From NCBI GenBank assembly GCA_905250025.1, contig CAJNOJ010000032.1, positions 481,501 to 545,500 of the forward strand: DNA of 64,000 nucleotides, given 5' to 3'. A model generated the notes under the pieces. The model saw only the letters and a program-made list of their open reading frames with translations, made no database searches and was not told where the DNA came from. This stretch comes from Adineta ricciae (taxonomy: Eukaryota; Rotifera; Eurotatoria; Adinetida; Adinetidae). Positions within the stretch are counted from its first letter, which is position 1. Every line of letters begins with the position of its first letter. Below, one piece after another: positions 49,520 through 58,521 of the stretch. Both the position numbers and the translations under genes were made by a program.

Positions 49520-52500
49520 TTATTGATGTATCTTTCTGTTAATGATCATACCACTTGATAGAGGTTGATTATCATCGGTATCATTGTGAATAGAACGCTG
49601 CGAGTATTGTAATGACGAACGAGCGGATTGTCGATTATGATTTCGTTTGTAAGTTGGGAAGAGATGTGTCTGTTGCTGATTCTCATTCGTTCTTCGCAGA
49701 CGAGTCGGAACTGTATTGGAACGATGATGAGAAATTGTCGGACTTGTGCGATGTAATGTGAGTGTGCTCGTATGGGTGCTTGATGAAGAATGAACATCGT
49801 TGGCTAGACTAATTTTTGTGAGGAAATCGTTCGATTTTGAAATAGTGATTGTTGATAACGAAGAAGTTTTCGTTAATGATCTAGATTTGCCTAAAAAACA
49901 CGATCAGATATATAAGAATAGAAAGTGGTGTGACAAGAATTAAAACAAACCTTGCTGTTCATCTTCGTCCGTTACTCCGACGATCGAATGAAATGTGAAA
50001 TTTGGTGGTAATGATAATTGTTTTGTCAATGGAAAAAAGTGCATGTTATTCTCATTGAGAAACTAGAAGAAAAATGGTGAATAGCTAAACAGATCAGAAT
50101 GAATCGTCGTTTACATCAAGTTCTTTGTCATCGAGTAAGGGATGTTCGGCATAGTTTCGATCTTGTGCATCCGCTTCTAGCTGCCGTTCGATTTCTTCGT
50201 CGATTTCTGCATCATCGGCCAGCATACGATTGGATTCCTAGAAAAGAATATGTCTTTACTATGAAATCACTAACTTTCGTGATTTACATCAAGCTTCTTC
50301 ATTAAGACAGCAACGACAACATTGACAAGAACGAATTGAGCCATAAGAACGAAAATAACAAAATAAACTGGAGCTATAGCAGTCATAAAATGATTTTTGG
50401 TAGCATGTGGTGAGTCATCCTGACGAAGTGCATCCTATATCGTCAAAGAAGAAACCTGAACATCGGAAATGACTTTCTTTAAGAAAATATCTACCTTCAT
50501 AATTCCGTTCCAATTATCACCAGTTGCAATACGAAACAATGTTAAAAATGCCATACCGAAGTCTTTGAAATGTGCATGTTTATCAAGTCCATTACACGGA
50601 CGTTCATCACTACATTCTAATTTACCAAATAATTCCACGCCGAGTGCGGCGAATATGAAGAAAAGAAGGAAAAATAAAAGACCCTAAGCATTCAATGAAT
50701 AGAAATCAGAATGAATGCAATAAAATGCTACACCTACCAAATTTCCAACTTGAGGAAGAGCTTGAATGACTGTATCGAGTAAGGCTCGAATGCCTTTCGC
50801 CATTTTCAATAATTTAAGCACTAAAACATCAATGAGCAAATCTGATTGAACGTTTTCGCTTCCTTCCACCATACCTCGCGCAATTCTCATTACTCTCATC
50901 ACACGTATCAGTGTTGGATTGATTGGAAGTACTTGTCCACTTTTCATTTTCTCCATCACAATACCCGCTATTGACAGAACAACGATGACTGTGTCCAACT
51001 GATTCCATCTACGATCAAATCTCATAAAACTTCTTCTGAAAACTTCTTCTCGTCTTACTTCTCTTTGAAATAACGCAATGGTCCTAAAGCGATGATTTTC
51101 GAGATGGATTCCAGTATAAAAACACTAGTAAACACGAAATTACAATAATCTAACGCCGTATCGATTTCCTAGAAAACAAAACGAAAGATTTCATCCAATA
51201 AAAGCTCAACGAAATCTCACTTGTGGCATTAAATAGAATTCTAATGACATTGTCACAACATTTAAACCAATAACAGCGGCGATAATTAAATCAAAATATT
51301 TACTACTACATATATCATGTAAACGTCTTCTCCAGGGCGAGAAATGTGCGTAATATGGTATCTCTCTCATCCGTCGTCGTTTCCGTTCGATTTTCTTCGC
51401 ACGTTTAGCTGTTCGTCGTGCCTTTTCTTCTCGTTCTTGCTCAGCACGGCATTTATGAAAGTTTTCCACAACGACACCGACGAACATGTTCAAAACAAAG
51501 AAACCAACAAGTAATAGAAATGAAATGAAATACACCAATTTCGCTTCATTATAATTTCTTATCGGTTGCCGATCAACATCAACAGCATCGATGCCATTAT
51601 ACATGATTTGTACCCAACCATCACGTGAGGATAAAACGAATAGAGCAAGTAATGCCTATGGGTGACATGAATTTCGAACGAAGTTTCTATCATTTGAAAA
51701 ATGACTTACTTGACCTAAATTATCGAAATTGTATTGCTGGTTTTTCCAACGATGATCGGGCATATCAAGGCATTGTTGACGCGTTGTAACATTACGAGCA
51801 AATAGACCTTCACAGTAGTAGAATTTGCCTTTGAAAAGCTAGATAAAATCAAGTAAAATTTAATTCATTCCACAATGAAGATTTACTTGAACACCCAAGA
51901 TACCAAAGATGATGAAGAATGTACAACAAATAACAACAATATGACCGATAGGTCTCAGCGATGACATCAATGTTTGTACTACGAGTTTAAGACCTGGTGC
52001 ACGGCTGATGACTAGAAACCGAAAAGAATCCGGATAAGATCAATGAATATTCATTTTCTAACCTCTCAGCGGTCGTAATGTTCGTAAGAGACGAAAAACT
52101 CTCAGCATGCTAAATATTCGTGTTGCTGCATCCGACTCAACGTTCGGCATGTGTGTTGGTGTTGCCGGCATTGGTCCCCGATGCATTGTTAATAAATCAA
52201 CGATTGATATGATCACTAGTGAACCATCCATAACATTCCATCCTGTATGGAGATAAGCATTTGGTCCCCACAACAACCCGCAAGCGATCACTTTTGTCAT
52301 CATTTCAATGGAAAATATCACTGTGAATATGTAATTTGTAATGTTCAAGAAATATCGTTCCTAGGAAAACTTCGATTTCTAGTTGAATTAGTGAGAACGA
52401 TAGATGACATACGGTGCTGTGTGCTGGAATTGACGGACGTTCCATGGCGAGTGTGATACAATTGAGTGCGATGAAGAAGAGAATTGCATAGTCGAATGAT

Positions 52501-55500
52501 TTTCTCACGATTAAACGTTTTAAGAATTGTCGAAATCTAGAAAAGACGATTGCTGAACTTTTAATAGAGATGTCTTTGTTGAAATTACCGATTTAAAGGG
52601 GAGAACAGATAAAGTGAATAATCGTTTCGTTTCTCGAGATATCTGAAGAATTGTTCATTACAGATGCGAATGCAGCATAAACGACCCAGCTAGAAGTAGA
52701 GAACCCAAATTTTTCGTCAAATCTCATTGATTAACTTACTCCTATTCTCTTTTGAGATTTTTCTTTTCCTGTTTCATCTACTTGCATATCGCTTTGATCA
52801 TTGATAATTGCTTGCATTGTAGAGTCCGTATCAACGACAAGTCGTATTGAATTATCTGAGACTGACGGTTGTTCGTGATGTTCAGGTGTACCGTACAAGC
52901 TCGGTGTTTCCATCTGTACAATAGGATTGGACGATTCATCTATTGCTGATCGTCGGGAATCGGTCAATGTCTCTTCCTGAGTACTGGAACGTTTTCTTAA
53001 TGGTCGTTCAGGATTTAGAAAGTTTTCGTGTGGAGAGGAGTTGCCCTCGACAGTTGAATATGGTCGAGGTTTGTGAAAACTCGCTGGCCGCTTCCGTATA
53101 GTATTATCAAGAGGATTTTTAACAACAGCTATTGTATAACTTCGTTTCAACGGCACGGAAAAGTCTGTCGATTGCTCAAACGATTCGTTTTGTGTTGATC
53201 CGAAACATGTGTGAAAGCTTTGACTAGTCATCGATGATGACGGCGATTGAGGTTGGGACGAACGTGTTTTAATGATTGATTTATATGGCGACGCAGTTGA
53301 GTTTGAAAACGTATGGATACGTGGTCGATTTTCGAGAATACGTAAACTAGCATCATCCTCGTTACTGATGGCAATTCGTGGGATGCTCATGATTTTTACT
53401 TCTATTCGAGGAGAAAAACAAATCGATGAGGATCACAATTTGAAATATGAGTTACCGCGAGTTCGTGGAAGTTTAGTTTCTTTATTACTAGCATTTTCGT
53501 CCGTGATCAGTTCGTGTGGGTTTGCTGGTACTTCAATATCACCGGTAAAGAGCGCTTGTGTCTAGTTAACAAAAGATTCATTTGCATATGAATAACGATC
53601 CTTTCGTCTCTCCTTACTTTGAATGGATCTGCTCTGGCTAATCTATCAGTACTGCTTCCCGCTTCCGAAGCACCGCTTCCTTTCTGAATTGAATAGAAAA
53701 AGAAGACTTTTGAAATCATTAGATGAGACAAACAAATATTTACTTCGGTGGAGAATCCTTCGACAAGAATAGCAACTAATAGATTAAACAAAACATAGTT
53801 TCCAAATGTCATCAATGCAATGAAATATAAAGCTGCCCAAGCACTTGTTTTTTCCATTCCATTATAAAGGACTTCGTTCCAGTCTTCTTGAGTCAACACC
53901 TAAGATGACCAAAGAACACATTAGATAAAATAACGCACTATTCCGACGACGAAACATTCAAAGCAGGGCGCGAACAAACCGATGCAGAACAATAGCGAAC
54001 ATTTGTTTTTAAAAAAAAAACAGGGTAATTCGTCTTCTTTACAGATTATCTATACCTGAAAGACAGTTAGAACTGCCCCGGTTAATGTATCGAAGTTTTT
54101 TCTCTGTTCCACACAAGTCAAATCTTTGAGATTTGTACTCTTTTTCAAGATTTCATATTCACTACATGTACAACATCGACATTTCATTTTTATTTCTTGT
54201 CTGGACGTTAAATTCAATGCTTCAATTGTCGAAAATTCACCGCCAAACAAATGCATACCAAGAATACTATAGATAGACAGGCGAACATCAACAAAACAAT
54301 ATAGAAAGCGAACGAGAACGAGCGATAGTGAGAGACAACATGGAGGATTATCTGATTACTTGAAAAACGGTTAGAATAGCCCATAGAAGTGAATCGAAGT
54401 TCTTTCTCGAACACTCAAATTCCAGTTTTCCACTATGTTTTACTTCGATATATTTGCAAAATTTGCAGCCGAAAAGATTCATTCCCAAAATACTGGAGAA
54501 GAAAGTTTTTAATTCGATTAAACATAGAACAAACAAAGGGCAAATGTTCCAGCAAAAACTTACCTAAAGATGAAGATAAATAGTAACAACAAGGAGAAGA
54601 ATGTCGCGACATTATCCATTGTTTTAAGCATAACAACCTACAGCAAAACAAAATGTCATTGTTTAAGTTCAAAATTCCTCGTCCGTTTAATCAAATCATC
54701 AGCATGGGATTCCTTGTCAAGATCAGAGAAGTCATTCTTATTCGATCAATCACTTGCTGATCAAAGATAACCTTGACAGGTACTCACCAATTGCCTTCGT
54801 AATGTTGGCATAAATCTCACTAATTTCAATACTCGTAATAGTCGAAATGTTCGCAACACCGATAAACCACTATTCTTGTTTCCTTGTAATTCAATCACGC
54901 TCATTAAAACAATTCCGCCATCGAATAAATTATAAGCACTTTTGATGTATTTCAAACATCCATCGGCGATGATTTTCAAAACCATTTCGATTGCGAATAG
55001 GGAAGTAAAGACTAGGTTACTATATTCCAATGCATTGGTTAATTCTATGGGTTGACCGTGATACTCGATGCCCATCGATAAGGTATTGACGACGATTGCG
55101 GAGAGGACGATGCGGCGAAAGTATTTACTAGCGACGAAATTTGAAACATGTTTTCGAACGACGAGAAAACGCGACCAAATGTATCGATCACAGCATATAG
55201 AAAATTTCGATTTTGTTTTAACATGATGATATTCTTCATCAGACTCTTCGTCATCATCCTGATCATCCGAATGAATAGTAATATCATTTTTATGAACGCA
55301 ATTGCATGGACTGTCTTCGAATTTGACCGGTGAATTATTCAACGTCAATGTATTGTCAAGTTCAGTTGTGATCAAAGGTAATTGTGGAACACTTTCGATA
55401 TCGATTATTGCATTCGGCGTGTGAATTGGATCGATGATATCAGATTGTTCCGGACTAGCTGCAGGTGCGTCAGCAAATGACGGACAAAGCGAAGGAGGTG

Positions 55501-58081
55501 TGGGGAAAGACATCGAATCAGTCAATTGATGATATCGACAGTTCGGCTGATGATTGATATGAACTGTTGGCAAAATAGATGAGTTCTCGTATAAACTTGA
55601 ATTGACACATCCTTCAGTCGGCGTTGATCGATTATTGAGTTTTTCCCTTCGACGACGTTTCTTCATTTCAACTGAACGTTTTTTACTGGCCTAAACAAAA
55701 ATAAATCTTTTTTCGAAAGTCTTCTAACGGAAGTGGTGATTCTTTTGTTTACACGAAATGTTCTCAATGCCTTCTAGGCTTCCAAAGCAGGTGGTTAGCT
55801 GATTAGTTGCATCGAAATCGCCAGAGGGAAAGTCTAACTCATACATCGAATAAAAGAAATCTACTATTGGAAAACGAAATACTATTAGTGGGAAAATCGC
55901 ATTACTTCAAAGTCAAGTTCCTAATCGACGAGCATTTTTCTCGAAGTACAGCTTTTATCTGACGAGAATCTAATTCTGATTGACATCGGATGTATTAACT
56001 AAATATTTCATGTCAAAAATCATTATGCGACCGGTTTTTTTCCTTATCCTCCGCATCACCTTGGAATGTGAACAACATCTCTCAATTGTCAGAAGAACTC
56101 TCGACCTCTACATCATGCTAGACCAAAAGAGAAACGCAGACGTACTTTCGGGTGTTTTTCACGATAATTCTTCCAATATATATGCAACCGTTTCTGCCCA
56201 TGTTTCCACAGACGTTCGACATATTTGATTGTTTCTTCCCAACACGAACCCGGCTCATCGCTTAGTAACGTGCTTGATGAGCGGGAAAAACGTCGTCGTT
56301 CAGCCAGCATTCTTTCCGTTTCACGTTTTTTCGTTTCGCTGAATTGCGTGGCGATAACCACAAGGCATAAATTAATCATAAAAAACGAGCCAATAACAAT
56401 CAAACAAACAAAATAAATCCAATCCCAAAATGAATGAGCATCTTGAATATAATACATTATATTCACCCAACTTTCCAGACTGATTATCTAGCGAAAGAAG
56501 GAGAACTAAAGATGAAGGAAAGAATGAATTGCTCACTTGAAAAATAACAACCCAAGCTAATCCAATATTATCAAAACTAATCGAACCGGAATAGGGATTT
56601 TTATCAGAGACATTACAGAATTTGTAATACTGATTCCAATTAATACAACCATTAATTGATTTATTTGGATCTTCGGAGATTTCTTTTTTAACTGTATAGA
56701 AATCCAATTCACACGTGAGATTTCCTTTTCGTAATTTGGGTATTTCGGAGCATTTCGTCATTCCATTCGACTGTGGATGCGAACAAACGAATGAATCTTG
56801 ATCCGGTGGCATATAGAACGGTCGATATTGAAAATCTCTACAAGAAAATAAATAAAAACGAAGCAAATATCACATCGACATACTTGAACAATGGATGGTC
56901 GAATTCGGTCGTTATGTTTGGTTGTAGAAAACAACGATTGCGTAATAGACCTTTCCACAATTGTACACCAACAATACCAAAGATGAAGAAGACGAAAAAA
57001 CAAAGAAGTAAAACATTTCCAAGCATTGGCAATGTATCAAGTAGTAACATGACCAGTATACGCATGGATGGGACACGATTAATCGCACGTAATGGACGAA
57101 GAACACGAATCGTACGAATTGCTGATAAACTTAGATTATCACCTGGAATAACTGACTCGATTAGACTAAAACGAGAAACATGAGAGAATAACTCAGAAGA
57201 GAACGCGCGGATGAATACAAAGGTTCATTAATTCTTTTTCACCTTGAAACAGAAGGTTATTCTAAAACAAGATACTAACACGTTCATGAAATGAAAAACT
57301 AGACTAATCGTGGTCAAACGCACTGGATAACTCCTCGCAAAGCGATTCCTATCAGTTCAATCAATATGTATATTGTTACTACGACAAACAATGGTTTAAG
57401 TCACGATGACACCAAGATTTCATAATAAGATCTTATTAGTACGAAGAATAATTTATTCAAGGAAAAAGAACATGCTCTCGTCGGAAATTTATCAATAAAA
57501 CACGCAATTCTATCAGAACATCTGACTTACCCAGTAACAACAATAAAACAATCTAACCGGTTCCATGTATCAGCTAAATACGTTCCTTTACCAAATATGC
57601 CCATAGCTGTCATTTTGATACACATTTCAATAGTAAAAAATGCAAATATAAAATAATCCGTTGCTTGTAACCAAATACAACGCGCTGTATCACATTTCTT
57701 TGTACCTTGAAGACCCAAAAGATGTTCACATGGTTGATACATTCCAAGTGTTATACAATTGAGTAGAATAACGAACATACTGATCCGTTCGAACCATGGC
57801 CATGTTATGATACGTAAGCATTGATATCGTGGTGTACTAGTTTGTTTAAGGCAATAGAAAACAGTTTCCACAAAGCCGGGATATGGTAATTCGTTCTCGT
57901 CAGTTTCTTCAAGATTACGTGAACGCGGTAAATCGGAAAGGATATTTGTTGATGCACGTTCTTGACGAAAACGGTCAGTTTCGTATAGACGTGTATCATT
58001 ATTTGGTATGGTAATGATCGTCGGTGACAACGGTTGATTTATATTATGATTAATTGTTGTTTGCAAATGATTCTTATCCAT
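49520..58081 (-). CDS. T-type (Cav3) voltage-gated calcium channel alpha-1 subunit
   Basis: Twenty-six exons on the minus strand, 58081-57531 first and 49890-49520 last, about 2022 or 2048 aa depending on the alternative exon. All four homology domains are complete, each with an S4 of repeated Arg. Selectivity-filter residues are Glu ([11 protein letters not shown]), Glu ([12 protein letters not shown]), Asp ([13 protein letters not shown]) and Asp (TGDNWNGIM): EEDD, diagnostic of T-type channels. Other hallmarks: [33 protein letters not shown] and [20 protein letters not shown]. The I-II linker starts with a basic helical segment resembling the Cav3 gating brake. Known: T-type channels open near rest and drive rhythmic firing. 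Exons 7a and 7b look mutually exclusive. Start chosen at MDKNHLQ, 28 nt after an acceptor-like site (TTCAG). Confidence 0.95.
54056..54266 (-). other. Cav3 alternative exon 7b (domain II turret, long form)
   Basis: 211 nt, encodes 70 residues beginning [16 protein letters not shown], including [11 protein letters not shown] and ending LTVFQ. Five Cys. Same entry and exit phases as 7a (both lengths leave remainder 1 on division by 3), so either, but not both, keeps the frame. Separated from 7a by 93 nt. Confidence 0.88.
54360..54492 (-). other. Cav3 alternative exon 7a (domain II turret, short form)
   Basis: 133 nt, encodes 44 residues beginning [17 protein letters not shown] and ending LTVFQ. 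Three Cys. Enters in phase 2 and leaves in phase 0. It forms the extracellular S5-P loop of domain II just before the filter exon TQEDWN. Flanked by AG at 5' and GTAATC at 3'. Confidence 0.88.
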
Positions 58082-58521
58082 GATCGTGCACGAGTTGTTG
58101 CTGCATGATCTGAATAGAATTGAGGGCAACAGCGGCCGACGAATGCGCACCTAAGTTTGATGTTCCATGTTCTGGGAAGAAGAAATATTTTGATCCAGAC
58201 GTACGTCAAACCGATAATGGAAACTAATCGGTTAAAAAATGAAATTGCCCATTAATCCATATCAAATATTGCAATCGTTCGTGATCTAAAACAAAGACAG
58301 TGTGAAATGTTTCGTTTGGTAAATAGACATATCTCATTAGTTTATTTTGATTACATAATAACATTCACCATGTCGAATCTCCTGGGAAATTTGACAATTT
58401 TCTCAGACCAATATGTTGTTAATGATGGCGACTGACAATAGAAATAGAAACACACATATATATTTTTTTTTCTTTTTCTTTCTATTTGCCCGTTTGTTTT
58501 CTCAAGCAAGTTAAGGATTTA

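Follow-up and report, generated by a model that had tools for sequence, protein, structure and literature searches.

A T-type (Cav3) calcium channel gene of the bdelloid rotifer Adineta ricciae carries two adjacent, homologous exons for the domain II turret, one short and one long, which, judged by their sequences, represent the exon 12a/12b pair of protostomes in this species. We put at about 0.6 the probability that both exons are genuine and used as alternatives, and that the choice tunes gating, redox or metal sensitivity, probably with no lysine-based Ca2+/Na+ flip. That the pair is a real one of the 12a/12b type is very probable; that no lysine-based selectivity switch operates within it is likely. 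The gene lies in a 64,000-nucleotide stretch, the window (C32:481501-545500, where C32 is the contig), and the searches for its relatives covered the whole genome, i.e., 130 Mb in 1033 contigs.

From about position 58150 to 50273, the minus strand of the window encodes a four-domain channel (Table 1). Pores I to IV read SLESW, QEDW, SSRDGW, and GDNW, which is an EEDD ring with an Asp directly after the domain II Glu. The series E, E(D), D, D is likewise found in five further copies, on contigs C159, C5, C2, C123, and C321. Among PDB entries, the piece with the short turret matches alpha-1I, alpha-1G, and alpha-1H best (186.3-188.8 bits; best Cav2, 115.5), the piece with the long turret matches T-type subunits at 188.3-193.3 bits (129.4 for the best Cav2), and the paralog called gene 3 below matches T-type subunits at 180.4-191.4 bits, against 139.3. 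The ring and the best matches bear out the earlier note, which had taken the gene for a Cav3 T-type channel.

Table 1. Features of the Cav3 gene, in positions of the window (slash, exon-intron boundary).
Feature	Position	Strand	Remarks
Domain I pore reading frame	56116..56487	-	SLESW, first E of EEDD; exon ends approximate
Domain II S5-ending exon, common 5' neighbour	54564..54637	-	Ends with AG of split Ser codon
Short turret exon, 12a-type, 133 nt	54360..54492	-	CxxC...C; switch-position Lys codon 54404-54402
Intron separating short and long turret exons, 93 nt	54267..54359	-	Donor CAA/GTAATC; acceptor CTATCTATAG
Long turret exon, 12b-like, 211 nt	54056..54266	-	CxCCxC...C; switch-position Lys codon 54100-54098
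Domain II pore exon, common 3' neighbour	53744..53899	-	Filter Glu; beacon Asp codon 53884-53882; S6
Domain III pore reading frame	51209..51655	-	SSRDGW, third residue D; exon ends approximate
Domain IV pore reading frame	50438..50683	-	GDNWNGIMK, fourth residue D; extends beyond exon 3' end into intron
Domain IV L6 loop and S6 reading frame	50273..50434	-	L6 without cysteine

The turret exons stand between a common S5 exon and a common pore exon, the latter with its 5' end at 53899 and including VLTQEDWN. The S5-to-short, short-to-long, and long-to-pore introns measure 71, 93, and 156 nt and are all GT-AG. The short exon holds 44 full codons and the long exon 70, in addition to a Ser codon split by the entry intron. 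The first base of each turret exon is the last base of that Ser codon, and each 3' end is a codon boundary. That is, both exons are entered in phase 2 and left in phase 0, and each by itself codes for a complete stretch of domain II from the end of S5 to P1. Two alternative turret exons of 44 and 70 codons, with identical entry and exit phases, had been proposed from the window; the proposal proves correct, with both of its stated ends exact to the base.

The frame separates the possible products. With either turret exon joined singly, the frame is kept. Joining the short exon to the long one leads to a stop after 78 residues from the S5 exon, and skipping both leads to a stop after 26; the outcome is the same in all four genomic copies that have both exons, in agreement with the earlier claim that inclusion of both would break the frame. 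The layout is thus one of mutual exclusion, i.e., adjacent homologous exons of equal phase, with a broken frame from both or none (4/4 copies). Because the frame runs into a stop whenever the two exons are both used or both left out, we infer exclusive use, and the pair would consist of true, alternatively used exons. A working transcript would take one turret exon, and a transcript with both or none would be discarded. Steric exclusion through a too-short inter-exon intron was considered and rejected as the means, as that intron measures 93 nt here and 285-286 nt in gene 2, and introns of 47-52 nt occur in the gene 3 model.

The short exon has four genome matches at E <= 0.001 (E 1.2e-25 to 6.1e-22) and the long exon six (E 1.9e-42 to 9.3e-25), all at Cav3 loci, and chance similarity is rejected on this ground. 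The domain II pore exon finds the six Cav3 loci plus four weaker matches to other channels. The copies fall into three pairs, C32/C159 (gene 1), C5/C2 (gene 2), and C123/C321 (gene 3), with mean DNA identities over BLAST pieces of 94.0%, 95.1%, and 93.7%, respectively. Between genes, C32 and C5 share 76.0% identity over 10 pieces, of which some overlap owing to a repeated part of C5, and C32 and C123 share 67.7%. We infer that each pair consists of allele-like copies of one gene, three genes in total; the snail Lymnaea stagnalis, in contrast, has a single Cav3 gene, LCav3. At C5:289001-299000, the domain I exons of gene 2 occur twice, around runs of N, which is probably an assembly artefact. 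Both copies of gene 3 read SSKDAW in domain III in place of SSRDGW.

Genes 1 and 2 carry both turret exons, and gene 3 carries the long one only. In the gene 3 model, the long exon is flanked by introns of 52 and 47 nt, so that there is no space for another exon. The 12a/12b pair is known in flatworms, nematodes, arthropods, molluscs, and annelids (PMC9694082), and some species have 12a alone or 12b alone (PMC4436565). Because the pair is reported across protostomes, it is simpler to suppose that gene 3 has lost the short exon.

The pair of LCav3 occupies the same place as the rotifer pair, namely, from the end of S5 to P1 of domain II, before the selectivity filter, and there too a short turret with three cysteines is paired with a long, Cys-rich one. 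Exon 12a is defined by a length of 38-46 residues and a CxxC...C motif (PMC7382465), the motif being given as CxC....C in PMC4436565. The short rotifer exon, with 44 codons and GCKFC...C, falls within this definition, and in 4/4 copies it has the Lys of 12a, at Cys+3 and 20 residues before the beacon. It differs in that the intraturret Cys pair of LCav3-12a (C1054-C1064) encloses 9 residues, whereas that of the rotifer exon in the window encloses 14.

The long exon is a looser fit to 12b. Like 12b, it is longer than 12a and lacks a Cys directly after FG, the place of Cav3.1 C889; it reads FGGEF or FGGQF in 6/6 copies. However, 12b is defined by 48-55 residues and C...CxC...CxC (PMC7382465), whereas the rotifer exon has 70 codons and CxCCxC...C. 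The earlier note had contrasted three cysteines in the short exon with five in the long. This count is right for gene 1, i.e., the window and its partner copy, but the long exon has six cysteines in the four copies of genes 2 and 3, the sixth being replaced in gene 1 by a Ser (codon 54232-54230). Since the Cys framework of the long exon differs, the 3-versus-5 match with snails is partly a coincidence. A further departure is that the 12b exons of molluscs and nematodes have a neutral residue (A, M, S, or T) at the switch position (PMC9694082, PMC10120453), whereas Lys occupies it in all four long exons of genes 1 and 2. The suggested likeness to the known 12a/12b exons thus stands for the short exon in length, motif, and Lys; the long exon resembles 12b but departs from it in codons, cysteines, and Lys.

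The switch position deserves closer attention. In LCav3, the switch residue is K1067 in 12a and A1078 in 12b (also printed A1089), and the beacon is domain II D1098 in 12b numbering (PMC9694082). It follows from A1078 and D1098 that the switch residue precedes the beacon by 20 positions, and the rotifer position was set by this numbering. At that position, Lys is found in the short exons (4/4) and long exons (4/4) of genes 1 and 2, and Pro in both gene 3 copies; the beacon Asp is kept in 6/6 copies. In the snail, replacing NMDG+ with Na+ gives a gain of about 15-fold with 12a versus 2-fold with 12b, and changing the 12b Ala to Lys makes the channel Na+ permeant, with a 13.5-fold gain versus 2.3 (PMC9694082). 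Because both rotifer turrets carry Lys above an intact beacon Asp, exon choice probably does not move the channel from Ca2+ to Na+ by the published lysine switch. Within the genome, a neutral switch residue is found only in gene 3, the separate gene with the long turret alone, and if there is a Ca2+/Na+ split at all, it may run between genes.

The domain IV L6 loop (D4L6) is the second element tied to Na+ passage. Invertebrates with 12a are reported always to have an extra D4L6 Cys pair, the loop raises Na+ passage, and the two Cys pairs of the snail loop support strong Na+ permeation (PMC7382465). Two L6IV cysteines are counted among the core cysteines of all four-domain channels (PMC6259924). 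A search for D4L6 cysteines in the rotifer Cav3 copies found none in any of the six, unlike in LCav3; if true, a Cav3 pore lacking any domain IV L6 disulfide would depart further from the plan common to four-domain channels. At six Nav-type loci in this genome, the domain IV pore is followed by two cysteines, in PPDC...GDCG. With Lys in both turrets and D4L6 cysteines absent in 6/6 copies, the earlier suggestion that one gene makes a Ca2+-leaning and a Na+-leaning channel finds no support. The broader suggestion, that the switch extends to rotifers, survives in part: alternative exons 12 are present, but as a pair that lacks the published Ca2+/Na+ lysine contrast.

What, then, would the choice of exon do? 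Most likely, it would alter the disulfide-strapped turret. From the snail channels, it may be reasoned that the choice would also decide whether the voltage-sensor bridge uses the 12a-type Cys after FG or another Cys, and that an altered bridge would change gating and sensitivity to redox, Zn2+, or Ni2+. Snail 12a slows all measured kinetics relative to 12b (PMC9694082), and loop-cysteine mutants alter Zn2+ and Ni2+ block (PMC7382465). A figure legend states the contrary, that 12a equals 12b in biophysical properties (PMC7382465), so that papers of the same group disagree on kinetics. The differences that remain between the rotifer exons, i.e., the Cys straps and probably the voltage-sensor bridge, point to gating, redox, or metal sensitivity, and a change in these would be likelier than a Ca2+/Na+ switch.

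Human Cav3.1-3.3 (PDB 6kzo, 9ayg, 7wli) are an instructive comparison. They share the domain II QED beacon and RKNFD at the turret end; like the short rotifer turret, they have the Cys after FG in the 12a position, and like genes 1 and 2, they have Lys at the switch position. Unlike the rotifer channels, they have one turret Cys and two D4L6 cysteines, and a single turret form is described for them (PMC4436565). Cav3.1 and Cav3.2 have been measured as highly Ca2+ selective (PMC9694082). Since human channels with the Lys include these two, selectivity is not set by Lys alone, and the snail rule does not necessarily apply to channels other than those of the snail; both rotifer isoforms may thus be Ca2+ selective. 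This would be a special case of the preferred reading, in which the turret tunes gating, redox, and metal block only, and we rate it just short of an even chance. Besides the shared Lys, it is favored by the finding that a snail channel with both human loops is Ca2+ leaning (2.27; PMC7382465), and the rotifer D4L6 has fewer cysteines than the human loop. Conversely, the Na+ gain remains at 7.9 when snail 12a is combined with the human D4L6 loop (PMC7382465), and the short rotifer turret retains its CxxC...C straps.

If the snail rule is applied instead, so that Lys means Na+ permeant, both turrets of gene 1 come out as Na+ leaning and gene 3 as Ca2+ leaning. The Ca2+/Na+ decision of bdelloids would then have moved from splicing to gene choice, with genes 1 and 2 Na+ leaning with either turret, exon choice setting speed and metal or redox sensitivity, and gene 3 Ca2+ selective. 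We regard this as rather unlikely. Cnidarian Cav3a and Cav3b (PMC9694082, PMC10120453) do carry a Ca2+/Na+-related difference between genes and not between exons, which in the rotifer is only a possible reading; in one cnidarian gene the beacon Asp has become Asn, whereas the rotifer keeps Asp in 6/6 copies and varies the turret residue.

It is unlikely that the pair acts as in snails, with a short-turret Na+-leaning and a long-turret Ca2+-leaning pacemaker channel from one gene. The short exon does share the length, CxxC...C, and Lys of 12a, the long exon is longer, Cys-rich, and without the 12a Cys after FG, and the pair occurs in the five phyla listed above (PMC9694082). These points are weighed against Lys in both turrets, given that Ala-to-Lys turns snail 12b Na+ permeant, and a D4L6 without cysteines. 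In addition, the genome has DEKA Nav1-type genes, which makes a substitute Na+ channel less necessary; with six such loci, it is not evident that a T-type channel has to supply Na+ current. Still, the two turrets could differ in selectivity through their fold despite the shared Lys. The long-turret Lys may not reach the beacon Asp because of the 70 codons and the different Cys framework. The six DEKA loci, among the loci examined, are on C105 (two, about 31 kb apart), C129, C55, C244, and C116, with the pore motifs QDYWE, CGEWI, FKGW, and TTAGW.

The splice signals and the substitution pattern bear on whether one turret exon is a relic or rarely used, with no real switch. The S5 exon donor is TAG/GTAAGT. 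The short exon has a pyrimidine-rich acceptor and a CAA/GTAAT donor in 4/4 copies; the long exon has an acceptor poorer than that of the short exon and a CAG/GTA donor. These differences are possibly part of the choice mechanism. Among intronic words common to all four copies of genes 1 and 2, the longest is 8 nt, in two introns, and one of these two words is the acceptor itself; in the long-to-pore intron, no common word reaches 8 nt. When genes 1 and 2 are compared, the short exon shows 8.7-9.7 replacement changes over about 108 sites and 20.3-22.3 silent changes over about 27 sites, the long exon has a dN of 0.26-0.27 and a dN/dS of 0.21-0.28, and the pore exon has no replacement differences in 50 codons. 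This purifying selection indicates that both turrets are retained as protein, the long one less strictly. A relic would be in keeping with the CAA/GTAAT donor, the poor pyrimidine tract of the gene 2 long-exon acceptor, the want of a short exon in gene 3, and the animals with only one of the two exons (PMC4436565). However, both exons are open, with consistent phases and GT-AG introns in 4/4 copies, and both are under purifying selection at high silent divergence, which makes a relic most improbable. A pseudo-exon was rejected on the open frames, splice sites, and dN/dS.

That both exons are usually spliced in tandem into one long turret is hardly credible, for although the 93 nt between them and the 47 and 52 nt introns of gene 3 indicate that spacing alone is no bar, the tandem product has a frame shift and stop in 4/4 copies and either exon is a complete stretch by itself.

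The exon 12 turret system thus gains a rotifer, and with it a natural test of the lysine selectivity model: the same Lys in two differently strapped turrets, Pro in a paralog, and a Cys-less domain IV loop. A full-text literature search found no paper on rotifer T-type channels, and the word "rotifer" is absent from the main texts of PMC7382465, PMC9694082, PMC10120453, PMC4436565, and PMC6259924.

The host, taken for a bdelloid, was also considered through genomic marks. The telomere word TGTGGG was dropped as a bdelloid mark (38 matches vs. 44 for the reversed control), the control being uninformative because the reversed word reads the same repeat. A 23-nt spliced leader is found in bdelloids and not in the monogonont Brachionus (PMC1925144). 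The exact word of the Rotifera consensus (PMC3795323) has no match in the genome; 41 sites have one mismatch, which in every case is T in place of the first G, and with up to three mismatches there are 46 sites in total (five with two or three), against none for a reversed-pattern control. Multiple diverged gene copies are the norm in bdelloids (PMC1925144), and the candidate spliced-leader sites together with the three pairs of diverged Cav3 copies support a bdelloid host.
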